Below are positions 4,696 to 36,959 of a DNA stretch of 41,289 bases, piece by piece. How positions within the stretch are numbered: position 1 is the stretch's first letter; each line of letters opens with the position of its first letter. The DNA lies in NCBI GenBank assembly GCA_900315675.1, contig OMZY01000021.1, positions 1 to 41,289 on the forward strand, read 5' to 3'. The stretch comes from an uncultured Eubacteriales bacterium. GTDB taxonomy: Bacteria; Bacillota; Clostridia; Christensenellales; Aristaeellaceae. Below the pieces are notes generated by a model. It was not told the DNA's origin. It saw only the letters and a program-made list of their open reading frames with translations, and did no database searches. The position numbers and the translations under genes are program-made.

Positions 4696-5466
4696 TCATT
4701 TCAAAAGCGACAGCCGCTTTTCCAGGTCTGCCGCTTTCACTCGGTTATCAGGGGTAATGGTTTCGGGTTCCTCAGGGGTGGGTTCCGGATCGGGTGGGTG
4801 CTCTGGCTCCGCCTGCATCACGGGCATCGGCTTTGGTATCGAAGCGATCACCCGGTTCATGAGGCAGGCAGCAGCGGATTTCCGCTCAAAAGAAAAACCC
4901 GCCATATCTTCAGGCAGGTCTTCAGCGCCAGTGTACAGGACTTCATCGCAGAAGCCCATCTCCTTTGCCTTGAGAGCATTCATCCAAGTTTCGCTGTCCA
5001 TGAGATGGGAAATCTTCGCCCGGCTCAGCCCGGTCTTGATCTGGTAAGCATTGATAATGCTTTCCTTTACCTCGTCCAGCAGCTGGATGGCTTTCCGCAT
5101 CTCTTCCGTATCGCCCATGGCCATCGTGAAGGGATTGTGGATCATCATCAAACTGGTAGGACTCATTGTCACCCGGGTTCCGGCCATAGCAATGACGGAA
5201 GCGGCAGAAGCTGCCATACCGTCGATCTGAATGGTGACGTCGCCGGGGTAATCCATGAGCATGGTGTAGATCTGGCTAGCCGCGATGCAGTCGCCGCCGG
5301 GAGAATTCAGATGAATGGTGATAGGGCCATTCCCGGAGAAAAGCTCCTCTTTGAACATGGCAGGGGTGATGTCGTCAGCGAACCAGGATTCTTCTGCGAT
5401 CACACCCTCCAGATACAGGGTACGGGATTCATCCTCGTTGCGTACCCAGTTCCAAAAGTGTCGCAT
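4696..5466 (-). CDS. prohead protease, ClpP/S14-type
   Basis: 256 aa with a Clp-protease fold: LNSPGGD near residues 53-59, nucleophile Ser in the GMAASAAS segment (about 83-90) and catalytic His in MMIHNP. The C-terminal 60 residues are Pro/Glu-rich and probably removed or disordered. The gene starts with AAGGAGG at ideal spacing and ends just before the capsid gene, as is usual for head maturation proteases that cut the capsid delta domain. Confidence 0.9.
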   Translation of the reverse strand: MRHFWNWVRNEDESRTLYLEGVIAEESWFADDITPAMFKEELFSGNGPITIHLNSPGGDCIAASQIYTMLMDYPGDVTIQIDGMAASAASVIAMAGTRVTMSPTSLMMIHNPFTMAMGDTEEMRKAIQLLDEVKESIINAYQIKTGLSRAKISHLMDSETWMNALKAKEMGFCDEVLYTGAEDLPEDMAGFSFERKSAAACLMNRVIASIPKPMPVMQAEPEHPPDPEPTPEEPETITPDNRVKAADLEKRLSLLK

Positions 5467-6728
5467 CAGGGGTACCTCCTTCTTTCAGGATTGGATTGGG
5501 TTTGGGTTGTTGGCTCCGCATCATCCGCTGCCTGCTTCATGGCAGTTGTGATGGGGATCATGTTGCCGTTGACAAGATAGGCGTCGCCGCCTTCTTCCTT
5601 CGGGATCGGGTTCTGGTTCTCCAGCGCACGGATATCGTTGGCGGACATCCAACCGTTCTGCCTCGCAATGGCGTAGCCTTCCATCCGGGACTTGTAGTCG
5701 CCACGCATCAGGCCGTCGATATTGAACTGCACATAAAAGCGCCCCTTCTCCTGATCGGTGAAAAGGGCGCGATTCATGGACTGTTCAATTCTGACGAGCC
5801 AGGGCCGGATGGTATGCACAGCAAAGTCGATAGACTGATGTTCGATATTGGAGAAGGTAGCATGCTCCAAATTGCCCACCAGATGAGGCGGCACTCTGAA
5901 GATCCGGCAAATCTCATCCACCTGAAACTTGCGGGTTTCCAGAAACTGCGCTTCATTATTGGGGATGGCAATCGGCTCAAACTTCATGCCTTCTTCCAGG
6001 ATCGCCACACGGTTGCTGTTGGAGGAACCGCCGTAGGCGCTGTTCCAGCTTTCCCGGAGCGCCTTCGGGTTCTTTACGGTGTTCGGGTGCGTCAGGATGC
6101 CGGAAGGACGTGCGCCGTTGGAGAAAAACTTACTGCCGTATTCTTCGGAGGCAATACCGAGGCCGATGGCGTTTTTCTCCAGTGCGATAGGGCTGTAGCC
6201 CATGACACCGTCGAAGCCTAGGCCGGGGATGTGCAGAACATCATCCGGGGAAAGGATCACCGTTTCACCTGTGCTGGTCATGTAGGTGTAGGTCAGGATG
6301 CCTTTCTTATCCCGGTCAACGGTCATCTTATCCGGCAGTAGCGGATACAGGCCAGTGACCTGATTCCGTCCGGAACGGATGATCTGGCAGTAGCTGTTGC
6401 CCCACAGAAGCAGGTGCGCCAGCATAACTTCCCGTAGCACAAAGGATGTCATTTCGCTGTTTGGCTCATCATGGAGCAATGGGAACAGTGGATGCTCTGT
6501 TGCTTTGCGGTTGCCGTCATCCTTTGCTTCATACACTCCCAGTGGCAGGCTGGCAACTGTTTCCGATATCACCCGGACGCAGGCATAAACCGTGGAAAGC
6601 TGGATAGCTGTGCTGGCATTGACCGGTTTGCCGGAACCGCTGGTGCCAAAGTAGAAGGTTGGGGCAGCGCTAACACTGTCCTGAGGCTTGTCTCGCGCAC
6701 GGAACAGCGCGGTGAATGGATTTTTCAT
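5466..6728 (-). CDS. portal protein (HK97 family)
   Basis: 420 aa from MKNPFTALFRARDK. The AGGAGG of this gene lies within the first codons of the longer reading from 6743, so the start at 6728 is chosen. Conserved portal blocks are VYACVRVISETVASLPLGVY, HLLLWGNSYCQI and IFRVPPHLVG. A dodecameric ring at one capsid vertex, it is the DNA entry channel and the docking site for terminase. Confidence 0.95.
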   Translation of the reverse strand: MKNPFTALFRARDKPQDSVSAAPTFYFGTSGSGKPVNASTAIQLSTVYACVRVISETVASLPLGVYEAKDDGNRKATEHPLFPLLHDEPNSEMTSFVLREVMLAHLLLWGNSYCQIIRSGRNQVTGLYPLLPDKMTVDRDKKGILTYTYMTSTGETVILSPDDVLHIPGLGFDGVMGYSPIALEKNAIGLGIASEEYGSKFFSNGARPSGILTHPNTVKNPKALRESWNSAYGGSSNSNRVAILEEGMKFEPIAIPNNEAQFLETRKFQVDEICRIFRVPPHLVGNLEHATFSNIEHQSIDFAVHTIRPWLVRIEQSMNRALFTDQEKGRFYVQFNIDGLMRGDYKSRMEGYAIARQNGWMSANDIRALENQNPIPKEEGGDAYLVNGNMIPITTAMKQAADDAEPTTQTQSNPERRRYP

Positions 6729-22416: not shown

Positions 22417-22788
22417 TCAGCCCTCCTCATGCAGCGGGCCGTCTTTCAGCATGTTCAGGCAGATCACCGTTGCAATCAGTGAAACAGCCTGCGGCACAGT
22501 GCTCATGCGTTCGAAATTGGAAACATGACGCATGACAGCATCTTCCATGGCAGAGAGCATGTCGCGGCGTCGCACAGGACGGTTGGCCTGCCGCAGTATG
22601 GCCCGTGCACTCTTCAGGGCAGCATCCTTCTGTGCTTTCCGGCGCTCCGCATTCCGGGCAATCATGTCCTCATACTCATCCTGATCCATGCCGCCCAGCA
22701 CAGCGTTCAGGAACCGTTCCATTCCGGCATTCTCCTGTTCAGCCATTCTGCCGGACGGATAACCCACACAATAACGAGCTCCATTCAT
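22417..22788 (-). CDS. hypothetical 123-aa phage protein
   Basis: No family recognised. Basic helical middle (ERRKAQKDAALKSARAIL, RPVRRRDML), which might bind nucleic acid. It is closely packed between the DUF669-like protein and the helicase (3 nt and 2 nt gaps), so it belongs to the replication operon. Confidence 0.75.
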   Translation of the reverse strand: MNGARYCVGYPSGRMAEQENAGMERFLNAVLGGMDQDEYEDMIARNAERRKAQKDAALKSARAILRQANRPVRRRDMLSAMEDAVMRHVSNFERMSTVPQAVSLIATVICLNMLKDGPLHEEG

Positions 22789-22790
22789 CT

Positions 22791-23267
22791 TCAGAATCCT
22801 CCGTTGCCCCAGGGCAGGTCGTCCGTATGCACGGGAGTCATGGCGTAGGAAGGATCGTAATCATAGAAGCGATCCACGTCGTTGACCTGACGGGTCTGGC
22901 CGTCCTTCGTGTACTCGCGGGGCTTGAAGTGAGCCTTGCCACGGGAACCTACCACCTTGTTCCAGTCCATCTTGGCCTTTTCGCCATGCTTCTTCTGACC
23001 GATTGCCCGGAAGAAAGCGGCCATACGCCATTCCACCGTGCGATACAGGAAGAAGTCGGTCTTGCAGGTAGCCACGCCCTTGTCGTTGTCGATATTCAGG
23101 GTGACCGTCGCCTTCGGGCAGGGCGGGATTTTCGGTCCGCCGGGAAACTGGCCGCGCTCAAACGCGGTTACGGTAAAGGTATAATCACCTTCGGGCAGGG
23201 TAATAAACTCTTGTCCGTCGTTCTCAAGAACATCGTCCCAGCCCATTACATTCGGATCCATTGCCAT
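22791..23267 (-). CDS. DUF669-like phage protein (ssDNA-binding candidate)
   Basis: 158 aa. MGWDDVLENDGQEFITLPEG and GDYTFTVTAFERG are typical of DUF669, found beside Sak4-like ATPases and suspected to bind single-stranded DNA with an OB-type fold. Interestingly WDDVLE.DG also appears near residue 95 of the primase (MDWDDVLEYDGDE), perhaps a shared interaction motif. Start has GAGGAGG. Confidence 0.85.
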   Translation of the reverse strand: MAMDPNVMGWDDVLENDGQEFITLPEGDYTFTVTAFERGQFPGGPKIPPCPKATVTLNIDNDKGVATCKTDFFLYRTVEWRMAAFFRAIGQKKHGEKAKMDWNKVVGSRGKAHFKPREYTKDGQTRQVNDVDRFYDYDPSYAMTPVHTDDLPWGNGGF

Positions 23268-23281
23268 AGTCGTTTACCTCC

Positions 23282-24295
23282 TCAAAATGGTGTATATTCA
23301 GGATTGCTCTGGATGGTGGTGACAACCTGAGACCAGTTGTGCATCAGCCATCCGCGTACAAACTTTTCGGGATACTGGTCGATCGGCTTATCCGCCGGGA
23401 AATGCCCCTTCTGGGCAACAAGGGTCTGAATCATCTCAGGCTTGATGTTCGCCTGATCCATCCAGCTCTGCAGGGTTTTCAGGGTTTCCGGGGTTACAGT
23501 GTCGGCGGTTTTCGGCGCGGGCACAGCCTGCGCGGTTTCGACGACAGCGTTCGTCTTCGGCAGGGTGATCGGCTCCGTCTTGACCGCTTCGAAAATCGGA
23601 GCGATGCTGGCGTAGGCCAGATCCATTTCTTCGGGCAGGTTATGGCGGTTTTTCGCATCCCAGCAGGGATGATGGCTGGTGTAGATCACCCGCTTGCCGC
23701 CCTGCGCCTTGTGCGTGTTCGCGTCTGTCGTGACCACAAAGGTCTTGAAGTTCAGGAACAGCAAGGCATCCGGCCATTCTTTCAGGAGCGGAGCGGCCTG
23801 CTTCGACAGCTTCAGCTCCCAGCGGTCAAAGGCACCCTGCTCGTCCGGCAGTTCCTGCTTCCGCATCTTGGCATGAGCCGTGATCACCACATTCTTCCCG
23901 GAGAGGATTACCTCGTTGCAGGCCAGCAGCAGGCGGGAAAACTCCTCCGCTAGATAGCTGTAGCCCTTGCCGTAGCCGAAGGATTCAATCCCGGGCTGGT
24001 TGTATTTCTTACAAACAGCCTCCGTGCACATCGCTTCAGCCCAGTCGGCGGTGTCGATAACCAGCGTCTGGCAAATGTCCGGTGTGGCGGCAATCTCCTT
24101 AATCAGGGCGATCAGCTCCTCCCAGTCCTGGGGCTTCTGTGTCCGGCGCACATCCAGATGTGCTGTGCCGCCTTCGGTGTCGATGAACACCGGGTCTTTG
24201 CACTGGGCCGCAAGGCTGGTCTTGCCGATGCCCTCCGGCCCGTAAATAACGACTTTCTGTGGGCGGGCCACCCGCCCGGAGGTAATGTTCAGCAT
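23282..24295 (-). CDS. Sak4-like RecA-fold ATPase (phage recombinase)
   Basis: 337 aa. Walker A YGPEGIGKTSLA (residues about 18-29), VFIDTEGG, Walker B TLVIDTADW, and VVITAHAKMRKQE are the AAA_24/Sak4 pattern. The C-terminal about 90 residues are a Pro/Thr linker and a small helical domain. Such proteins pair with an SSB-like partner (the DUF669 gene directly downstream) for single-strand annealing or exchange. Confidence 0.88.
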   Translation of the reverse strand: MLNITSGRVARPQKVVIYGPEGIGKTSLAAQCKDPVFIDTEGGTAHLDVRRTQKPQDWEELIALIKEIAATPDICQTLVIDTADWAEAMCTEAVCKKYNQPGIESFGYGKGYSYLAEEFSRLLLACNEVILSGKNVVITAHAKMRKQELPDEQGAFDRWELKLSKQAAPLLKEWPDALLFLNFKTFVVTTDANTHKAQGGKRVIYTSHHPCWDAKNRHNLPEEMDLAYASIAPIFEAVKTEPITLPKTNAVVETAQAVPAPKTADTVTPETLKTLQSWMDQANIKPEMIQTLVAQKGHFPADKPIDQYPEKFVRGWLMHNWSQVVTTIQSNPEYTPF

Positions 24296-24309
24296 TCTGT
24301 GTTTCCTCC

Positions 24310-24822
24310 TTATCTCAGATAGCAGCTGGTCGTGGATACCCGCTCCGCGCCGGGAACCATGTCTCCGGCATCCAGCAGCTTTCCGACGTACAGCTTTGAG
24401 AGCTCAGGTTTCGGAATCCGGTAGCAGTCATCGTGCCCGTTTTCCTTCAGCCACTGGAAGGCGGCATCCTCATCGGAGAACTCTACGTGACTGGCGCTGC
24501 GGTAACACAGGGTTGCCACGCCCAGATCTGTCTTTTCGCCGCACTCTCGGTCGAGAATGCTGATCAGACGGTCATGCCGTGCATCCATCCGCTGGCGGCG
24601 ATCCTTCAGGCGTTTCTCCTCAGCCTTCAGGCTCTGAACGCTTGCCTTCGCATCCAGCGCCAGCTTGGCAAGATACTGCAGGATGTCTTTTTTCTTCATG
24701 CCCAGCTCATTGATCCGGGCGATGATCTCATCCTCATTGGCGGGAATCTCTCCGGTTTCCGGATCGGGCTCCAGTTGAAGAATCAGGTCTTCGATCTGCT
24801 GGTTTACTTCATACAGTTTCAA
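24310..24822 (-). CDS. Siphovirus Gp157-like protein
   Basis: 170 aa with a long central coiled coil (SVQSLKAEEKRLKDRRQRM) and the C-terminal DAAFQWLKENGHDD pattern seen in the Gp157 family, which lies upstream of recombination genes in Firmicutes phages. The first codon is TTG with GGGAG upstream; it overlaps the previous gene by 14 nt. Function unknown; once linked to phage resistance in Streptococcus. Confidence 0.85.
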   Translation of the reverse strand: MKLYEVNQQIEDLILQLEPDPETGEIPANEDEIIARINELGMKKKDILQYLAKLALDAKASVQSLKAEEKRLKDRRQRMDARHDRLISILDRECGEKTDLGVATLCYRSASHVEFSDEDAAFQWLKENGHDDCYRIPKPELSKLYVGKLLDAGDMVPGAERVSTTSCYLR

Positions 24823-25018
24823 AATTGGCGTCTCCCTTCGTTTCTTTGATCTCGACGGTCTTTACGGTCTCTCCCGGCTTCAGCACCAGAATTTCGGAAC
24901 AGTCCCCGAACAGGAACCGGATCAGCCTGCGGGGCAGATACCTGATTCCGCTCTGGATGATCTGATGGTTTCCGTCCGGCTTAGCAACATGGATACGGAC
25001 GGTGTGAGTCATACTCAT
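24809..25018 (-). CDS. hypothetical 69-aa phage protein
   Basis: No family recognised. Begins MSMTHTVRIHVAKPDGNHQI, small beta-rich and basic (RYLPRRLIRFLFGD). AAGGAGG at 25032-25026 is partly inside a long hairpin (25031-25111), so translation may be controlled. Overlaps the Gp157-like start. Confidence 0.7.
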   Translation of the reverse strand: MSMTHTVRIHVAKPDGNHQIIQSGIRYLPRRLIRFLFGDCSEILVLKPGETVKTVEIKETKGDANFETV

Positions 25019-25129: not shown

Positions 25130-25624
25130 TCAGGATTCGATCAGCTTTTTAAGCCGCTTGTGAATCTTGTCCCTCCGGCAGCGGATCGCTGCCTCCGTCA
25201 CGTTCTTTTCCTTTCCGATCTGGGTATTGGTCTTGCACATGCCGTAGAGGTCGAAAATCAGATCCCGCTGATCGTCCGTCAGCTGTCCGATGGTTTGCCG
25301 GAGCTTTTCCAGAAGCGGGCTGTCTGCGGTTTCTTCAGGGTACAGAATCCGGAAAATGTCCGCTGCAGGGTCAGGAATCTCATCCATGGGATGCCCAGAT
25401 TCGTCATCCGGGCACCGTTCATACCGGGCTACAGCGTTCTGATAACCGTAATCCGCGTGCTTCCGCTGGACGTCATCCTGCTCATGCACAGCAGCGTCGT
25501 CTTCCATAAGGAGGGCCAGCCACTTCTTGGTGACGCCGTCTTTCCCGACCTGAATGGTGGTCTTGGTTCCGTCCACGGACTCGTAGGTGTAAGTAGTAGC
25601 TTTTTTCTTCTGAATGTTCGCCAT
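25130..25624 (-). CDS. sigma-70 region-4-like phage regulator
   Basis: 164 aa. The N-terminus is a short beta-rich domain (TTYTYESVDGTKTTIQVGKD); the C-terminal 55 residues form a region-4 type helix-turn-helix (LTDDQRDLIFDLYGMCKTNT, then TEAAIRCRRDKIHKRLKKL). Lacks sigma region 2, so it is an auxiliary regulator rather than a full sigma factor. Its GGAGG is buried in a 16-bp hairpin immediately before the ATG, at the end of the 590-nt structured region. Confidence 0.8.
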   Translation of the reverse strand: MANIQKKKATTYTYESVDGTKTTIQVGKDGVTKKWLALLMEDDAAVHEQDDVQRKHADYGYQNAVARYERCPDDESGHPMDEIPDPAADIFRILYPEETADSPLLEKLRQTIGQLTDDQRDLIFDLYGMCKTNTQIGKEKNVTEAAIRCRRDKIHKRLKKLIES

Positions 25625-25669: not shown

Positions 25670-26212
25670 GGGTGCACTTAATAGCGCTGCACATCATTCC
25701 GAACAATCTCCGTTCGTGTGATTTGCAGCAGCCCTTTCGATAGCCGATGCGGTTGGTGCTGACGGGGTGATCTCGAAAGTGTGCCGGAGCGACCGGCGAA
25801 CACCTGGTCAGCGGTGATCCTGACGACCCGTCGGTCAGTCAGGGGAAGAAAAGTTCCTCCCAGCAGGCAGAAAAACGCACAACTGCCTGCCGGGATCCGT
25901 TGGCTTCCAACGGATTTCTGGTCGTGCACTGACCGGCGCGAAGCCATCAGCGCGGGAAAAATGGGGAAAGAAAAAGGCCGGGATACAACGGACTAGGCTG
26001 ATAACATTATCAGCTTCGTTCGTCGTACCCCGGCCTGGCGGTGGTCTGCTCTGGACCCCAAAGCGGCTCGGGTAGTACGATAAAGAGGATATTTAGGGGA
26101 AAAGAATGCCGGAGCATAACGTTTCAGGCCGCTCACGGTCATCTGCGTCATACTCCGGCACGGGCGGTGGTCTACTTTGGACCCCTAAATGGCTCGGATG
26201 GTACGATGTACA
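25625..26212 (-). ncRNA. candidate large structured phage RNA or leader (~590 nt)
   Basis: No credible gene fills this stretch; frames here lack ribosome binding sites. It contains at least eight clear stems: two tandem repeat units (26206-25977); ATCCGTTGG with CCAACGGAT (25895-25915); GCAGGCAG with CTGCCTGC (25863-25890); CCTGACGACC with GGTC-A-GTCAGG (25819-25843); GCTGAC/GTCAGC (25758-25812) enclosing GTGTGCCGG with CCGGC-GA-ACAC; GCTGCA/ATCA/CGAAC pairing with GTTCG/TGAT/TGCAGC (25686-25729) closed by AAAGGG/CCCTTT; then the sequestering hairpin. Size, phage setting and ornate folding recall the ROOL and GOLLD classes, but family membership cannot be tested here. Confidence 0.65.
25977..26206 (-). 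repeat. two tandem ~125-nt units, each a 44-nt box plus covarying stem
   Basis: The box at 26163-26206 and its copy at 26038-26081 agree at about 36 of 44 positions and contain GGTC-N7-GACC. Each is followed (minus strand) by a long stem: GCCGGAGTATGACG with CGTTATGCTCCGGC in one, and GGCCGGGGTACGACG with CGTTGTATCCCGGCC in the other. All pairs are kept: A-U changes to G-C, U-A to C-G, and the remainder change via G-U. Mismatches appear if the plus strand is folded, which favours a minus-strand RNA. The second stem is followed by TTTTTCTTT. Confidence 0.8.
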
Positions 26213-26521
26213 TTATTTCTTAACTGCGCGGGAGCGCTTCGAGGCTCCTCTGCAGGCACTTCCGGGTTTCGATGTCAGACTGTCGTAGTCAAACACAGCA
26301 TACTTTCCACAATTGGGGCATTTGTAAGAAGCGCATCCATGCGCACCCGGGAAAACGACAGCCTTCTCTTTCGGGCAACAAGGGTAAGGAATAGTCACGC
26401 CAGACGATTCTGATGGCCCAGTACGTTGGTGTTCTTCCTCTTCTTCCTTCTCGTCAGCAGCGGGAAGGGTGACAACATTAGAGTAGACAGCGGATCTCTC
26501 GTAAGTAGCGGTTAAGGTCAT
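26213..26521 (-). CDS. small zinc-finger-like protein, 102 aa
   Basis: From MTLTATYERSAVYSNVVTLP. The ATG at 26521 has AAAGGAG 11 nt upstream; an open extension to 26665 lacks a convincing one. A Glu-rich linker (KEEEEEHQRT) precedes a Cys-rich part with CCPKEKAVVFPG and CASYKCPNCGKYAVFDYD, a zinc-ribbon-like CPNC motif. Basic tail ending in KRSRAVKK. First gene after the repressor; a regulatory role is inferred only. Confidence 0.7.
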   Translation of the reverse strand: MTLTATYERSAVYSNVVTLPAADEKEEEEEHQRTGPSESSGVTIPYPCCPKEKAVVFPGAHGCASYKCPNCGKYAVFDYDSLTSKPGSACRGASKRSRAVKK

Positions 26522-26831: not shown

Positions 26832-27446
26832 TTAATTCTTATGGTTGCTCAAATTTTTGAACACCCAGACAGCAACACCCTGGACCTTCAGAAAATCGAC
26901 TGGGATATCCTTCAGATCCGGATTCTCCGGATGGAGGATAATCTGGTTTCCTTTATGCCTGAGGCGCTTGAGGGTATTTCCTTCGCCTTCCACATAGGCG
27001 ACGACAATGTCGCCGTCGTTGGCGGTCTCCTGTTTTCGGACAAGCACCATATCCCCTGAGTTGATCCCAGCGCCGATCATGGACTTGCCTCGAGCGTACA
27101 GAACGTACATCTCGTCGTTTCCCACAATGCTGGCAGGGACAGTAACGTATCCCTCAAGGTGTTCCTGTGCATCTGTCGGGATACCGCAGGAGATATCGCC
27201 AATGATGCCAACCTGACAGGTCTCGGCACTCCGGCTTGCCCTGATGAAGGGGGTCAGGATCCGCTTGCCATCGTACTCGATATCTCCATCCTTGTGCATC
27301 GCAACGAGATAGTTAAAAACGGCAGTGCGCTGGAGGGAGGTGTTAGCGGCGATCTGACTGCACGTCGGAAACTCGTGGGTCTGCGAGTAAAACTGATCTA
27401 CGTAGGCGATGATCTCTTTCTTGTACTCCGGATTCTTGCTTCTCAT
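26832..27446 (-). CDS. LexA/S24-type phage repressor
   Basis: 204 aa. N-terminal LexA-like winged helix (CSQIAANTSLQRTAVFNYLV). The linker holds a Cys87-Gly88 pair in IGDISCGIP, matching a self-cleavage site. The C-terminal S24 peptidase has Ser122 in GKSM and Lys160 in NTLKRL. DNA damage should therefore trigger RecA-stimulated self-cleavage and induction. The gene sits at the head of the co-directional early operon, with a promoter and a perfect palindrome just upstream, implying autorepression. Confidence 0.9.
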   Translation of the reverse strand: MRSKNPEYKKEIIAYVDQFYSQTHEFPTCSQIAANTSLQRTAVFNYLVAMHKDGDIEYDGKRILTPFIRASRSAETCQVGIIGDISCGIPTDAQEHLEGYVTVPASIVGNDEMYVLYARGKSMIGAGINSGDMVLVRKQETANDGDIVVAYVEGEGNTLKRLRHKGNQIILHPENPDLKDIPVDFLKVQGVAVWVFKNLSNHKN

Positions 27447-27462
27447 GATCCCACCTTCTTCC

Positions 27463-27521
27463 TATCGTGAATTTCCATTCACGATACGCAGATTATACAG
27501 AAAACTGAGGGGGATACGCAA
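27463..27521 (-). promoter_or_regulatory. repressor promoter and palindromic operator
   Basis: TTGCGT (27521-27516) and TATAAT (27497-27492), spacing 18, read toward the repressor. Directly downstream lies the perfect inverted repeat TATCGTGAAT-TTCC-ATTCACGATA (27463-27486), well placed to block initiation and thus the likely repressor operator. A second, looser repeat CGATATC (27533) / GATATCG (27555) lies upstream of the promoter. Confidence 0.75.
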
Positions 27522-27691
27522 GAGCTTTTTCTCGATATCTCAAAGGTTGATGAAGATATCGTACAGTCATCTTGTCATAAGTGAGAACTGGATCCTCCAG
27601 GTAGAATAAAGATATTGAAGGGTTTACGTTCTTTAGAAGATGATCAGATCCAAGCGAACGAAGAGATGGCGAAACTATTCTTTCAATAGAC

Positions 27692-27720
27692 TTGAATTAT
27701 TCTACGATTTGCGCTACAAT
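27692..27720 (+). promoter_or_regulatory. promoter of the methyltransferase operon
   Basis: TTGAAT (27692-27697) and TACAAT (27715-27720), spacing 17, 69 nt before the first methyltransferase start. The spacer 27447-27691 between this and the repressor operator has no gene. Confidence 0.7.
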
Positions 27721-27789
27721 TATGGCGATGAGGGGAAAAACCTCTGCATCATTCGCGAAAGAGAATTAAACCGCAGAGGAGAAAGTGCT

Positions 27790-30471
27790 ATGGAAACCGT
27801 GCAGTACTTGTCAGCACAGGATGTTTCGGAAATGTGGGGAATAACCAAGCGAAGAGTTCAGAATCTGTGTGTAAACAATAGAATTCCAGGAGCGTTTAGA
27901 ATTGGTAATATGTGGGCTATCCCTGCCAATGCCGTAAAACCTAAAGACGCAAGGGTCAAGGAACATATTGAAGAGCAGCTTCCTCTTACTGTTTCGATAC
28001 GAAAGGCTCGGAGGGCTTTGAAATCCCTGGTCGAGACTGCGATCTGTGAACTCTCAGATTTGGGAATGTCAGATGTTGAGGCGCTGCATACAATTATTGT
28101 TCTTTTTGCGTCAAAACTATTAAAACTATTTCTACGAGAAGATCAGGATTATATTGAAGTATGCACTAGTTTTTTTAGGTGTAGTATCAACAGCGAAGTG
28201 CCAACAGAGATCGATCAGAATATTGATAGATTTATTGCTCAATACGAAAACTGCCTTGACGACTCTCTATCCTGGGTCTATCAGTTTGCTACAAAGAGAT
28301 CCGATTTATTCAAGTACAAGGATACACAGTTTTTCACTGAGAAATATATGATAAGTACTCTTGTTGATTCAGTAGGGCTCGATGAAAATTCTATTGTAAT
28401 CGATCCTGCGTGCGGTGGGTGTAATTTTCTTCTTTACTCATTTGAACGAATTGTAGAAAAAAGCCCAAAAAAGAGTGCCACCGAAAAAGTGGATTTTGCC
28501 CTAAACAGGTTATATGGTTATGAAATTGATCCCTTTCTTGCATATGTTGGCTCATTTAACTTAAAGCTGAAAGCTCTCGCATACATCGGAAGTGAGCGAG
28601 AAATCTCCTTGTCGGATTTTAAAACGATTCATCCACTTGTTTTTTATCCAGAGAATGAGACTGTTTCTGGTTTTCTGGACATCGAATGGGAAAAACAGTT
28701 CGTTATCAACTGTGATACTCAAGAGACCCTTCAGCTTGTTGATGCATTTGACGGAGCAAACGTAGTGGTCACAAATCCTCCGTTCCGCACAATAAAAGGA
28801 ATGCCGTTGGAACAGAAGGATTTCCTTCAGCAGTTTTATCCGATGTCAAAATGCGATATGTGCAATGCTTTCATTGAAAGAATCATGGGGGTTCTTCCCG
28901 AAAACGGAAAAGCTGCCATGGTAACACAAAACAGCTGGATGTATCTTGACAGTTTCACAGCATTAAGAGAGAAGCTGCTAAAGGAATACACTCTGAATTG
29001 TATATGGGAACTGGGTTCGAATGCTTTCTATGACTTGTCGGGAGAGAAGGCAAATGTCGCACTTTTGACTATAACAAAAAAAAATCCCGAAGAAAACAAT
29101 GAGATTGAACTCGGTTTTCTACGCACCATGAGCATTGAGGATATTGAAACGGCTATTGAAAGCAAAACTATTCAACTAGTACGGATAAAGCAGACGGATG
29201 TGTTGAGGAATACAGGCTCAAGATTTGACATGGTCAGTACGGATCATCTTAAAAGCTTACAGATCGAATGTGATCAGTATAAGGACTACGCTGTTCCGAT
29301 GCAGGGAACATCAACAGGAGATGCAAAAAACCTGATCGACTTCTTCTGGAACCATATTGGAGATGAAGATTGGGTTCTGGTAAGTAAAGGCGGCGGCTAC
29401 TCACGCTTCGAGGGACTCAACTCCTACTGTGTCAAATGGGGGAAGGATGGCGAATACATCAAGGCTACCAAGGGTTCTGCTATACGAAACGCGAATTACT
29501 TTAGTAATACACAACTTGTGTTCAGTGATACTGGAACGGCAGGATTGAATGTTAGAGTTCTTCTGCCTGGACAGGTATTTGTAGCATCAGGTCCCGGTAT
29601 TAGAATAACGAAAGGAAAAAAGTTAGCACATCTAGCTTTTCTGAATTCACGTTTTGCTGCTTTCTTTGTGCGGTTACTCTCACCGAAACTGACAATAGCT
29701 GCGGGATATATTGGCAAGATCCCCGCAACTGAAAAGCTTCTCGATTCAGCGATTCTTGAAATGCAGTCAAGAAAATGCCTGGCCGCAAAGAAAAATAGAT
29801 TGATGAAACGTCCGAACAACTTCGAATTCGTCTACCTAGTTCATACCGTCGGAAAGAGCATAAGAGAAGCTGCTAAAGAGTGGTTTTTAGAAGACATCAG
29901 CGATGAATGGAAGCAGCTGATCGCAGAACAGGTCATAGAAGATGAAATTGCTAAAGAGATGCATCTGACCGCTGAGGACAAGAAAGCGATTGATGGTTTT
30001 CTCGGTAGCAGAACTGTCATATCCTTAGGAGAAGAGGAAGTCACAAGTATTACCAAATCTGATGTGTCAGGGCTTTTAGGGTTTGACTGTTTTCCTCGGA
30101 GAACAAAAGCAAACAAGAAAGCGCTGGGTTCTGACGGACTGATCGAATATGTTTCTCAAATTAAGGGGCTATCATGCGAAACTGTAAAGTCCTTTCTCGA
30201 AGAGAGATTCGAATGGTTCGAAAGCAATTATGTCGACCTTTACATGCTCGCACTGACCCTCTCAGCCTTAAAGTATCGTGATAGGACCTGCTCAAGCATG
30301 ACAACAGATGCATTGATCACTGCAATGAATATCTCCGACAAGCAGGACACAGCTTTTGCAACATTGTGGATAGAGTCCCGTTTCAATATCGTCCACAGCG
30401 GCCTTTTTGAGGAAGAATCCATATATCATTACGACTTAGAAAGCAAAACGATGAAATCGGGTAAGGAGTAA
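27790..30471 (+). CDS. N6-adenine DNA methyltransferase with N-terminal HTH (R-M cassette)
   Basis: 893 aa from METVQYLSAQDVSE; the ATG at 27790 follows GAGGAG, so an upstream extension of 50 codons is dropped. Residues 6-50 are a MerR/excisionase-like HTH (SEMWGITKRRVQNLC). The catalytic domain has motif I DPACGGCNFLL (about 205) and motif IV TNPPF (about 329), the gamma-class N6-adenine pattern. The remaining 500 residues probably hold target recognition. No nuclease motif was seen. Four nt separate it from the second methyltransferase. Low GC compared with the phage genes suggests separate acquisition. Confidence 0.88.
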   Translation: METVQYLSAQDVSEMWGITKRRVQNLCVNNRIPGAFRIGNMWAIPANAVKPKDARVKEHIEEQLPLTVSIRKARRALKSLVETAICELSDLGMSDVEALHTIIVLFASKLLKLFLREDQDYIEVCTSFFRCSINSEVPTEIDQNIDRFIAQYENCLDDSLSWVYQFATKRSDLFKYKDTQFFTEKYMISTLVDSVGLDENSIVIDPACGGCNFLLYSFERIVEKSPKKSATEKVDFALNRLYGYEIDPFLAYVGSFNLKLKALAYIGSEREISLSDFKTIHPLVFYPENETVSGFLDIEWEKQFVINCDTQETLQLVDAFDGANVVVTNPPFRTIKGMPLEQKDFLQQFYPMSKCDMCNAFIERIMGVLPENGKAAMVTQNSWMYLDSFTALREKLLKEYTLNCIWELGSNAFYDLSGEKANVALLTITKKNPEENNEIELGFLRTMSIEDIETAIESKTIQLVRIKQTDVLRNTGSRFDMVSTDHLKSLQIECDQYKDYAVPMQGTSTGDAKNLIDFFWNHIGDEDWVLVSKGGGYSRFEGLNSYCVKWGKDGEYIKATKGSAIRNANYFSNTQLVFSDTGTAGLNVRVLLPGQVFVASGPGIRITKGKKLAHLAFLNSRFAAFFVRLLSPKLTIAAGYIGKIPATEKLLDSAILEMQSRKCLAAKKNRLMKRPNNFEFVYLVHTVGKSIREAAKEWFLEDISDEWKQLIAEQVIEDEIAKEMHLTAEDKKAIDGFLGSRTVISLGEEEVTSITKSDVSGLLGFDCFPRRTKANKKALGSDGLIEYVSQIKGLSCETVKSFLEERFEWFESNYVDLYMLALTLSALKYRDRTCSSMTTDALITAMNISDKQDTAFATLWIESRFNIVHSGLFEEESIYHYDLESKTMKSGKE

Positions 30472-30474
30472 ACA

Positions 30475-32760
30475 GTGGAAAGCAAGGTTAATGAGATCGC
30501 AGTGCATTTATTGTCTGCGGTAAAAGAGAAATACAAGGATGACATCAGCAATATCCCGGAGATATTATCATATTGGCACAATGTGGTTTACTTATTCTTT
30601 TCATCGGTCAACTATAAAAGGCTTTTTAGTGCTGAGTACACCGACATCTCTGATATGGTATCAGCAGGGCTAATGCCACAGTATCTTTATGATTTGTATA
30701 TGATGGATAATGCACTGATAGGAAGGTACATTGATTCCGCAGTAGATGCCTATTATTCACTGGGGCTAAGCGTAAATGATACACGACAGCAACTTTTGAA
30801 TATCGAACTTGACTTTATGGGGAATACAATAAGCATTTTTTCTGATAAAGTCAGCAGGGACAATACAGGTGCTTACTATACACCAGAAGAACTGGCGTTT
30901 GAGATCGTAAAGAAGGCTTTTGATGAAAGAAGATTTGAACGGAATAAGGAATATCGTATCGCAGATTTTTCCTGCGGGTGTGGAGATTTCTTGCTTGCTG
31001 CAATGAGGTATCTGTCTGAAGAATACGGAATCGAAAAAAGAACCTCTGCTTTGTGGTTTTACGGTGTTGACATTGATCCTGTGGCGCTCCAGATATGCAT
31101 CGTAAATCTTCTACAGTACGCAGACCGCGACGATTGGGCAAGTATAATTTCGCATTTTGAGTTTGGAAATCCATTAGTTATCAACGATCATGAATGCAGT
31201 CAAGAAGAGAAGAACAGACTGTTTGCGACCAGAAGGCTTTATTCTACCGGACTTGGCATAGGTAGCCGTTACTTCGATAATTCTTATGACTTTGTTGTTG
31301 GTAATCCTCCTTGGGAAAAGATCAGGTTTGAAGAGAGAAAATTTTTCAGAGGAATATCAGAAAGCATATCTTCTGTATCGCAAAAAAATGTACGGGATAA
31401 AGAAGTAGAAAAACTGAGTACTGCATCTCCGATGGTTTTTGAGTGGCGCAACAGCGTGATTAGTGAGTATTCGAGAATGACAGCCACATACTTTAAGCAT
31501 AGTAAGATCCAAGATGCTGTTGCCGGAGAATTAAACACATATGCCTTGTTCACAGAACTGGCATATAATATGTTGTCTGAAAATGGTCTCCTTGCCCTGG
31601 TGGTCAAAAGTACACTTGTAACAGCACCCGTTAACCAGAAATTATGGTCGAAATTCCTTGATGATGCTGCCGTAAAAGGAGTTTATCTTTTTGAAAACAG
31701 GAAGAAGATCTTCAGCATCGATTCAAGGGAAAGATTTATTGTTTTGATTCTTACAAAAAAACCAACAGCAGCCTTTGAGTTTTCAGCAGGGCTTACAGAA
31801 CCCAGCGAACTGTGTCAATGCAACACGATCACACTGAAATCTGGCGACTTGCAGCGGATCAACCCATTCACCAGAACGATCCCAAACGTGAGCAACAACA
31901 AAGAAATCGAGTTTCTGAAATACTCACATACACAGTTTGAGCTTTTTTCAGATGTCTACCCAAACTGCCATTTCGGACGATTGATACATTTGACAGCACA
32001 TGCAGCGCTTATCTCTAAGAAGCAAGAGCGTGATAATATTCCTATATATGAAGGAAAATTTTTGGAACAGTATGATGCAAGATATGCCACCTTCCGTGGA
32101 ATTCCAGATTCAAAAAAGTACGCAAACAAGGCAACGGCATTGAGAATCGAACCTTCCGAATACGGAGGCAAGGACTGGCCAGAAAGCAGATATTTCGTTG
32201 ATCAGAGTCTATGGGACAGGTATCTTAACCAGTACAGCGAGAAATATTCATTATGCTGGAGAAGTCTTACCTCGCCAACAAACAGGAGGACAATGTTGGC
32301 TATGATCCTGCCGACAGTACCAACATGTCAGTCCATCCAAATGTTGCAGACTTCGGACGAAGAAGAACTTGTGATACTTCTTGCGTTGTTCAACTCTATT
32401 CCCTTTGATTACTTTGTGAGAATAAAAATGCCTGGATTGGACCTGACCCAGAGTGTTATAAAGCAGATCCCGGTTCCTTCAGCAAAGGACTATGAAGAAA
32501 AATACGAGTTTAACGGAGTATCTTGTACACTGAAACGGCATATTCTTTCTCATACTATAAAATTGCTTAAAGATGAGAACAGGCTCACGGAATTAGTCAA
32601 GGATTTTGACGGCAAGATATATGATGTGCAGGAGCATGATGTTGAGAAAAACAAAAAGATGATAGACATTCTTTTCAAAAAAGCCTATCATCTTGATGAC
32701 GATTCTTATAGGGAAATACTGCTTTCCTTTCCTAAATATCAAGCAGACCGTACTGCTTAG
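30475..32760 (+). CDS. second N6-adenine DNA methyltransferase (Eco57I/type IIG-like)
   Basis: 761 aa from a GTG at 30475 behind AAGGAG. TGAYYTPEELAFEI (about 130), motif I ADFSCGCGDFLLA (about 163) and motif IV VGNPPWEKIRF (about 275) are the Eco57I-like arrangement. It differs from the first enzyme, so the two may methylate different strands of an asymmetric site or have divided tasks. The last 29 nt overlap the 3' end of the convergent PLD nuclease gene. Confidence 0.88.
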   Translation: MESKVNEIAVHLLSAVKEKYKDDISNIPEILSYWHNVVYLFFSSVNYKRLFSAEYTDISDMVSAGLMPQYLYDLYMMDNALIGRYIDSAVDAYYSLGLSVNDTRQQLLNIELDFMGNTISIFSDKVSRDNTGAYYTPEELAFEIVKKAFDERRFERNKEYRIADFSCGCGDFLLAAMRYLSEEYGIEKRTSALWFYGVDIDPVALQICIVNLLQYADRDDWASIISHFEFGNPLVINDHECSQEEKNRLFATRRLYSTGLGIGSRYFDNSYDFVVGNPPWEKIRFEERKFFRGISESISSVSQKNVRDKEVEKLSTASPMVFEWRNSVISEYSRMTATYFKHSKIQDAVAGELNTYALFTELAYNMLSENGLLALVVKSTLVTAPVNQKLWSKFLDDAAVKGVYLFENRKKIFSIDSRERFIVLILTKKPTAAFEFSAGLTEPSELCQCNTITLKSGDLQRINPFTRTIPNVSNNKEIEFLKYSHTQFELFSDVYPNCHFGRLIHLTAHAALISKKQERDNIPIYEGKFLEQYDARYATFRGIPDSKKYANKATALRIEPSEYGGKDWPESRYFVDQSLWDRYLNQYSEKYSLCWRSLTSPTNRRTMLAMILPTVPTCQSIQMLQTSDEEELVILLALFNSIPFDYFVRIKMPGLDLTQSVIKQIPVPSAKDYEEKYEFNGVSCTLKRHILSHTIKLLKDENRLTELVKDFDGKIYDVQEHDVEKNKKMIDILFKKAYHLDDDSYREILLSFPKYQADRTA

Positions 32761-35603: not shown

Positions 35604-36959
35604 ATGTCTACGGAACAAGAGAAACGTCTGCATCGGTGCTGTTTTTCCGGGCACAGGCCCGAAAAGCTGAACGAACCGGAAGCTGAAATAAAGCAATGGC
35701 TGTCTGAACAGATCGATAGTGCCATTGCTGCCGGATATACGACCTTCATTTCTGGCTGCGCCATGGGTGTTGATATCTGGGCGGCTCAGATTGTTTTTCA
35801 GAAAAAGCAACAGAATCCATCTCTGCGTCTGATTGCGGCCACACCATGGCCGGGCTTTTCCAACAAATGGAGCAATGACTGGCAGGTACAGTACAGTGAC
35901 CTTTTGAAGAATGCTGATCTCATTATTCCAGTCAGCAATCATTATCACAAAAGCGTATTTCAGCAGCGGAACGAGTGGATGGTGGATCACAGCAACAGGG
36001 TAATTGCTTACTTCAACGGTGCTCCCGGCGGCACAAAGAATACCATTGACTATGCTACCAGCAAAGGCATTGAGGTTGTTACCAACAATCCGGATTACAA
36101 GCCGAAAGAGAAAAGAAGAAAGCTTATGGAATCTGAAAAGACTCCGTATCCGGAGAATCTTCTTACGGATATGGGGCTGGAGCTCGTTTTCGGAAAGCCG
36201 GAATATACTCCACTGAACGATGATCAGATGGCGGGCTTAGCGCATGCTCTCACCACTATACGGGAACGCGAACAGGAAATGATTCGGCTCCGTTATGAAG
36301 AGAAAAAGACCCTTCAGGAAATCGGCGATCGGTATGAACTCTCGCGGGAACGTGTCCGGCAGATCATAGCAAAGGGAGTACGAAAGCTGCGGCATCCGTC
36401 CCGGACTGTGTATATTCGGGATGGCTTTGATAAGGTAGAACTGGTTCAAAAAATCACATGCGCTGAAGAAATGAAAAAGCAGCTTCAGGTACAGAAAAAA
36501 CGATACCCTCTGATGACGGAAGAGGATATCGTTAAATTTGTTTTTCAGGGAATGCTGGGTGTCGGGCATTTGATCAATTCCGAACAGGATGCGAAGGACA
36601 GACTGTCTGCTGAGATGGGGTCACTTAATCCTGATGAGGACGAACCTCTTATAGAAAAGATCAGCTCGGATTGGGTACGGCTCAATCTGCGTTCCGCAAA
36701 GGCAAAAGGAATGACGGTAGACGATATTGCCTGGTACCTTGTCCGTTCTGCAGAATGGGGAGCGTTGTCCTTCACGCGGCAGAATGTTTACAACTTCTGC
36801 GTAAAGATAGATGGTTCTGAGCGAATGAAAGCTGCTGCAGCGAAGGTACTGGATGAGCACTGGCTTCCGCGCCACTCTGAACAGTACCAGAAAGCTTACC
36901 ATCCGGCGTACCGCGTTTTGTATAAAGATTTTAAGAAGTTCAAGCGAGACGATGATTAA
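35604..36959 (+). CDS. SLOG-domain / sigma-region-4 / unknown C-terminal fusion
   Basis: 451 aa. Residues 1-165: SLOG (DUF1273-like, YpsA/DprA Rossmannoid) with [11 protein letters not shown] and [10 protein letters not shown]. Residues about 216-268: a sigma-70 region-4 HTH ([35 protein letters not shown]). Residues about 275-450: an unnamed helical domain with [12 protein letters not shown] and a C-terminal [16 protein letters not shown] domains are thought to bind nucleotide-like ligands. A ligand sensor joined to a promoter-contacting helix suggests signal-dependent transcription control; that is inference. Confidence 0.82.

Follow-up and report, generated by a model that had tools for sequence, protein, structure and literature searches.

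What is the paired repeat at the edge of the early region of a Clostridia prophage, and what would it do there? The question is raised by the window, that is, the whole 41,289-nucleotide stretch of DNA analysed here, in which a preliminary description had reported two units about 125 nt apart that share a 44-nt box. A repeat search recovers both as a 45-nt box in two copies (26037-26081 and 26163-26207, 84% identity) at a spacing of 126 nt. Read from the minus strand, each unit consists of an unpaired CCGAGCC, a box hairpin in which one A bulges out, a short linker, a long stem and a U-rich tail. The long stem is a stable stem-loop with a U-rich tail behind it, the usual criterion for an intrinsic terminator, so that the long stem noticed earlier is a predicted intrinsic terminator, to which the box hairpin is added here. 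In the direction of the phage genes, the features of the region are the following:

27457..27492, minus strand: inverted repeat ahead of the S24 gene, putatively operator-like
26832..27446, minus strand: gene of an S24-peptidase (LexA/CI/UmuD-like) regulator, upstream of the zinc-ribbon gene
26213..26521, minus strand: gene of a 102-aa protein whose C-terminal domain is zinc-ribbon-like with four Cys
26101..26203, minus strand: RNA unit U2, covariance-model match of 87.3 bits, itself among the model's alignment rows
26197-26191, minus strand: CCGAGCC ahead of the U2 box hairpin
26166..26185, minus strand: U2 box hairpin GG-GGUC-CAAAGUA-GACC-A-CC with bulged A
26107..26160, minus strand: U2 terminator stem-loop, then UUCUUUU
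25970..26077, minus strand: RNA unit U1, covariance-model match of 84.7 bits, itself among the model's alignment rows
26040..26059, minus strand: U1 box hairpin GG-GGUC-CAGAGCA-GACC-A-CC
25976..26035, minus strand: U1 terminator stem-loop, then UUUUUCUUU
25130..25624, minus strand: next clear gene behind the units, weakly similar to families of sigma factors and regulators (phrog_13787, E 1.3e-5)
22417..25018, minus strand: first early genes, including Gp157/Gam-like and Sak4-like ones

A simple scan tool that permits loops of 3-8 only listed no minus-strand terminators here.

The first point to settle was whether the repeat is under selection as RNA. In the alignment of the two long stems (26160..26107 against 26035..25976, minus strand), 15 positions pair in both copies, and they include all 14 pairs previously described as surviving through double changes and G-U intermediates. 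Both bases differ in three of the 15 (U-A/G-C at the foot of the stem, A-U/G-C and U-A/C-G), and two are half-changes via G-U. Among 13 aligned homologous units, for which we named the structure, 96.7% of 273 cells hold standard pairs. Shuffling the columns lowers this share to 84.4% (none of 500 shuffles reached the observed value), and displacing the 3' partners by 1-3 columns lowers it to 34-47%. Covariation scores 0.467 versus 0.214 shuffled and 0.06-0.15 slid, all of these figures being inflated by the relatedness of the sequences. Changes on both sides affect 10 of the 21 pairs, a count reached in 1 of 500 shuffles. Homologous prophages had been singled out beforehand as the place where the pairs might be lost, and there they are kept. 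In the minus-strand reading the 273 cells contain 23 G-U/U-G pairs as opposed to 3 A-C/C-A, with 6 other mismatches; this excess indicates an RNA read from the minus strand, which is the strand of the phage genes, as had been argued from the two copies.

Regarding the identity of this RNA, no Rfam 15 family reached its gathering score in the window or in ten loci, nine of which carry a counted unit, and the covariance scan recommended at the outset, including ROOL, GOLLD and raiA, matched none of them. Scans at E-value level with the window stretch and two homologues gave 4, 20 and 25 matches, all far under gathering and mostly to microRNA families, and ROOL, GOLLD and raiA were absent from these as well. 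Covariation, strand asymmetry and the Rfam result together bear out the proposal of a selected, phage-sense RNA structure of uncatalogued identity; by its sequence, the unit is a genuine RNA family without match in Rfam or in the literature searched. That we are looking at a chance similarity, a DNA-level repeat or a coding sequence is hardly credible. Such an origin would account for the duplicated DNA and for the plus-strand ORFs that cross it, but the covariation and the G-U over A-C asymmetry rule out coding or DNA-repeat origin, the unit recurs at 25 loci, and the plus-strand frame through the U2 box hits a stop in U1 by eye.

The 25 loci with box and terminator were collected from exact-pattern scans, blastn, protein searches and covariance-model scans. 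They amount to about 20 distinct sequences, because L067 nearly duplicates L068, L069-L072 are near copies of one another, and L093 is similar to L069:

IMG/VR loci: L003, L041, L042 (sequence equal to L048), L053 (equal to L088), L055, L092 and L093
Phage-record loci, all labelled Ca. Heliusvirales: L040 and L067-L072, i.e. NatCom_19828, 24097, 27009, 43249, 13861, 29765 and 40364
Genome loci: L011 (L045), L012 (L043), L046, L049, L057, L096, L100, L101, L102 and L107, plus the window

Clostridia-type genomes are among the carriers. A covariance model built from 13 units matches behind the zinc-ribbon gene in six further phage records with 41.5-55.5 bits. Prevalence is low in the many-genome scans, which run with stricter filters and lose weak matches: 10 of 308 genomes of the family match at E 0.01, six with counted units (window, L012, L011, L100, L102, L101) and four with uncounted ones (L103-L106); in the class sample 1 of 391 genomes matches, which is the window's own, and in the phylum sample 3 of 398 do, which are again the genome of the window, that of L107 and that of the weak match L108.

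One strong full-length match per record was found in 13 of 15 records or genomes, so a regulon of dispersed copies is not seen. The window prophage and its IMG/VR twin (G665) hold two units each, and G662 has a weak second match of 17.7 bits. A second model scan gave two matches on separate contigs in G1046, none in G485 and two further weak ones of about 21 bits in G1045. The window stretch has a single place in its own genome (blastn), and its tandem arrangement is unusual, its relatives being mostly single-unit. In L003 a weak, divergent second unit (5255-5157, minus strand, 17.7 bits) with GAGCC and a terminator-like stem lies ahead of the zinc-ribbon gene; it was kept out of the 25.

Several other candidates were set aside. 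The pattern matches L002 and L004-L009 were judged to be chance from the printed stretches (L007 gave none); two of them were put to the model, where L002 scored 19.3 and 12.4 bits and L004 12.2 bits. L044 and L047 (14.2 and 14.9 bits) were dropped, L083-L087 and L089-L091 showed no model match or 10 and 8.9 bits, L013-L039 had no box core within 4 mismatches, and the weak zinc-ribbon matches L058-L060 and L062-L066 had no model match. L061 contains a unit-like stretch by eye in which the model finds none, and it was excluded, as were the model matches L103, L104 (terminator only), L106 and L108 (weak). L105 has a weak box, yet a zinc-ribbon gene and a 12/12 promoter upstream; it was likewise excluded. 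blastn of phages with the window unit returned 10 records, of which NatCom_19828 was followed; the rest, at E about 4, were regarded as chance matches. A single protein query gave no match in plasmids.

Across the loci the element has a common layout, with an unpaired YYGAGC, a small bulged hairpin and, about 1-5 nt on, the long intrinsic terminator, whose U tail is weak at L053 (CUUCUU). Two types of box can be distinguished: type 1 carries one bulged A, whereas type 2 has a second bulged A and a further stem on top. In 20 box sequences, counted by hand, checked against their loci and leaving out L101 and near copies, the five box pairs are standard in 100 of 100 cells. Pairs 1 and 2 are invariant, pair 3 occurs as GC/AU/GU and pair 5 as UA/CG/UG (three standard types each), and pair 4 as GC/UA/AU/CG (four standard types). 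A sixth pair, C-G, is found in 11 of 16 sequences, and the other five do not keep pairing. The upper-stem arms of type 2 are unrelated yet pairing (AAC/GUU, ACA/UGU, GUUU/AAAC, AUGU/ACAU, CGG/CCG), with two pairs only in L102. As 5 of the 13 model rows (L003, L041, L042, L046, L049) stem from exact patterns fixing several box bases, invariance at these bases is partly by construction; pair 3 was unconstrained in one of the pattern designs used (two scans). The P2 shuffle test (0 of 100,000) refers to stretches picked by eye, L061 included. An antiterminator formed by the box AGCC and the terminator 3' arm was considered and discarded, because in alignment A4 the pair formed by columns 47 and 107 varies (AU, GC, UA, UG) and the box A in column 10 is constant, so that a pairing between box and 3' arm is not followed.

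The box could also belong to a small trans-acting RNA released from the 3' UTR, with YYGAGC as its seed. The conserved unpaired 5' stretch, the terminator at the end and the mostly single copy would suit such an RNA; the strongest constraint, however, lies on the bulged hairpin, which covaries across types 1 and 2 and is more typical of a site for a protein or the polymerase, and we regard this explanation as improbable.

A function closer to hand is suggested by the genomic position. Where examined, the unit sits between regulatory genes and the lytic operon, all on one strand, and in three phage records read at length a regulatory stretch and the unit are followed by a near-unbroken series of same-strand replication, packaging, structural and lysis genes. 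Exceptions are NatCom_19828, with two annotated other-strand ORFs right behind the unit (4914-5739) where longer forward ORFs are seen instead, and NatCom_43249, with two CDS on the other strand. Upstream genes encode a Y-family polymerase in L040, an HTH_3 (XRE-like) protein in L069 and, under the Pfam cutoff, in L067, DndB-like proteins in L046 and L057 and a weakly MarR-like protein in L048; none was recognised in L055, and L100, L101 and L105 show LexA/S24-, polymerase- and XRE-like genes by eye only. Behind the unit, DeoR-like or sigma-like regulators, exonuclease, SSB, helicase and polymerase genes are found, and in L092 the next gene matches phrog_13787 as it does in the window.

Promoters were scored out of 12 with a sigma-70-like consensus, a scan to which promoters of a phage sigma factor or of other types are invisible. 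No good promoter of this kind lies in the gaps scored directly behind the unit, the best score being 8/12 or less in all 11 (L040, L067, L069, L048, L041, L088, L092, L045, L003, L046 and the window). In ten of them shuffles reach the best score in 80-199 of 200 cases; the gap of L045 cannot hold a promoter, since the next ORF starts only 24 nt behind the unit. With a looser pattern, a single promoter-like site appeared in the L069 gap and again in that of L072. Among seven stretches before regulator genes, L069 and L040 reach 12/12, L048 10.5 and L067 10, and the scores are weak for the S24 gene (9/12) and the zinc-ribbon gene (8.5) of the window and for L092 (9); a scan tool found no promoters in the window.

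The sole lytic-strand 12/12 site of NatCom_19828 lies 1587 nt before the unit, with an 11/12 site on the other strand beside it, and the next site of at least 10/12 behind the unit is at +26,007. NatCom_43249 has a 12/12 site at -1048 and the next one (10/12) at +8690. For NatCom_24097 (50,000 of 59,567 bases) sites are found at -2948 (12/12) and -1139 (10/12) and, behind the unit, at +1971 and +3840 (both 10/12), its 15 sites of 10 or more in 50 kb comparing with 11.3 in shuffles. L113 shows 12/12 at -1191 and L110 11/12 at -1277, in both cases ahead of the regulator gene, but L110 also has 10/12 at +2975 and +3200; L111 has only 10/12 at -1378, and L112 two 10/12 sites about 3 kb before. With consensus promoters before the regulators of several phages and no good one in the gaps scored behind the unit, transcription probably arrives at the lytic genes by read-through, and an order of promoter, regulator, terminator and lytic genes fits several of these phages.

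We therefore read the unit as a candidate regulated terminator, an antitermination switch of Clostridia phages between regulatory genes and lytic operon, and give this reading a probability of roughly 45%. RNA polymerase coming from the early promoter would stop at the terminator of the unit, until a factor acting on the box allows it to continue into the lytic genes. The best candidate for this factor is the zinc-ribbon protein, freshly produced from the gene upstream. Its action on the box would create a delay and a switch with positive feedback, similar to lambda N/nut or Q/qut; in the window, this switch would be doubled. Both read-through and RNA binding by the zinc-ribbon protein are inferred from sequence.

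The candidate partner is encoded directly ahead of the unit. In the window its ORF is listed from 26665, with AAAGGAG ahead of the ATG at 26521 (by eye), and about 17-20 nt separate its stop from the GAGCC of U2 that follows. A structure model has a strand-rich core with pLDDT values of 80-89 per ten residues over positions 41-90. A small four-Cys ORF of this kind has its end no more than about 25 nt from the box GAGC at 21 of the 25 loci, and in three of them it overlaps that sequence. Protein-led searches, in which the RNA served as the test, found the unit at 6 of 6 loci in one case and in 7 of 7 records in another; a third with 11 matches gave the unit at two (window, L057), L061 by eye only and eight without. 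Conversely, RNA-led searches with the protein as the test found the zinc ribbon at L003, L011, L012, L040, L041, L042, L046, L049, L093 (with L094), L096 and L101. It is missing at L092, which has a small protein without the full Cys set, at L100 and L102, which have a different small protein, and at L107, which has no evident phage gene; three of these four still have a small ORF ahead of the unit. Consequently, the zinc-ribbon protein cannot be the obligatory partner everywhere, which implies replaceable partners or a box working with host factors. In two Blautia records the zinc ORF is unannotated, and short opposite-strand ORFs are listed over it.

Phage Mu Com is the nearest known RNA-binding relative of this protein by sequence, the similarity being weak: hhalign gives 88.6% for profile A6, over a comparison that spans both Cys pairs, and 59.1% for profile A1. 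A1 and A6 match each other with 99.9%, which is partly a self-comparison since the protein of L040 is in both. Four of nine members match phrog_6417 ('translational regulator', best E 2.6e-4), and the window protein itself has no PHROG match and no Pfam match above cutoff. A fold search with its model returned 95 matches at E 10 or less and none at 0.001, and a PDB sequence search gave 14 weak, uninformative matches, many of them zinc fingers. Excerpts of PMC6483171 describe Com as a zinc-finger RNA-binding translational regulator that acts on the com-mom mRNA and activates mom; SELEX gave GAG(N)2CC pairs, and CC(N)2-3GAG in a hairpin loop was proposed as the recognised motif. Com thus shares with the present case a small four-Cys protein with a (putative) RNA target in its own operon.

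This parallel allows for another explanation, in which an ordinary terminator ends the regulator operon and the box lets a Com-like protein control the translation or stability of its own mRNA. The GAGC(C/A)...GRGYC repeats of the box recall the SELEX pairs, a likeness seen by eye that is imperfect and differs in spacing, and in Mu the mom gene (35877-36602), which Com activates, begins within com (35768-35956). The box, however, sits past the stop codon and away from any start, it is followed by a terminator and other genes, unlike the mom translation that Com activates, and the gaps scored behind it lack good promoters. Without a specific search, nothing resembling mom was seen behind the unit, and model R1 matched nothing in the 2.2 kb of Mu scanned. 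Taken together, this autocontrol seems distinctly unlikely. More plausible, if still tentative, is the specific form of the antitermination switch in which a Com-like zinc-ribbon protein would recognise the bulged hairpin fused to the terminator behind its own gene and thereby open the whole lytic operon.

For lambda N and Q, the regulator genes lie near their sites of action, which stand between early promoter and lytic genes beside a terminator; lambda N has two nut sites, and HK022 put is not known to be fused to a terminator. Our unit would resemble N/nut and Q/qut in the regulator gene close to it and in its position, which gene order and promoter scan place, for several of the phages, past the early promoter, at a terminator and ahead of the lytic genes. 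It differs in occurring in Clostridia phages with a zinc-ribbon-like protein and a bulged hairpin fused to the terminator, in that the antitermination is an interpretation, and, compared with the two nut sites of N, in being mostly single per genome. N/nut and Q/qut are mentioned in excerpts of PMC9378689 and of PMC11658703, the latter on Tn916 canT.

As for put, excerpts of PMC9378689 describe it as a nascent structured phage RNA of the early transcript that bears on termination and works on the polymerase with no dedicated phage protein. The unit differs from it in its usual zinc-ribbon neighbour. The box might then act on RNA polymerase alone or with host factors, and the zinc-ribbon gene would merely be a frequent neighbour. 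Such a put-like element would agree with the box retained at the four loci lacking the gene and with the short linker joining it to the terminator; on the other hand, put acts on terminators up to 10 kb away (excerpts of PMC9378689), an always-active antiterminator right before its own terminator makes little sense, and the zinc ribbon is present at 21 of 25 loci. Up to E 10, model R1 has no match anywhere in the HK022 record. We consider this alternative unlikely. The proposed regulated terminator would have a further counterpart in conAn (ConAn1 protein and conAn2 RNA), again a protein and an RNA at the start of a long mobile-element operon in Bacillota, as an excerpt of PMC8955417 describes it; against pLS20, model R1 gave one chance-level match (11.8 bits, E 0.51; 50,000 of 65,774 bases, which may or may not include conAn2).

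The RNA of box and terminator is without match in Rfam and in the literature searched, and the kind of device is known; the tables of PMC8040213, which in excerpt reports thousands of candidate structured RNAs of human microbiomes, could hold the unit. A two-part phage switch as proposed here was not found in the literature searched, and it would, if true, provide a lambda-N-like function from a different protein and a different RNA in Clostridia gut phages. The unit stands at a meaningful genomic place, and the proposed mechanism is a likely one. Lytic commitment of gut Clostridia phages, Ca. Heliusvirales among them, seems little studied; a defined RNA family near the start of the lytic operon with a candidate protein partner brings the question within reach of a terminator-reporter assay, and small zinc-ribbon ORFs before replication genes, sometimes unannotated, could be recognised as likely regulators.

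Some observations stand apart. In a fold, the U2 box AUUUAGGGG (26190-26182, minus strand) is perfectly complementary to CCCCUAAAU (26099-26091, minus strand) just past the U2 terminator, so that read-through RNA could trap the U2 box; U1 has CCCCA past its U-run, and by eye no such complementarity was seen in the tails of L003, L011 and L012. Ahead of the next (HTH) gene, the gaps of L040, L041, L048 and L067 contain, by eye, a second inverted repeat whose arms vary yet still complement each other; it may be an operator or a leader hairpin. L003 and L046 share a stretch like GGTCGGGYGAWGACCTTAAACGCCT behind the unit that could form a small hairpin (by eye). At L109 8446 (unit L107, genome G1424) a good unit of 42.6 bits has no evident phage genes around it and follows a gene with a HAD/YbaK-like product (by eye). 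Beside the prophage early region of the window, divergent genes at 27640-32760 (plus strand) encode a 943-aa Eco57I/N6 methylase-like protein and include a 761-aa ORF; they may form a restriction or defence module.
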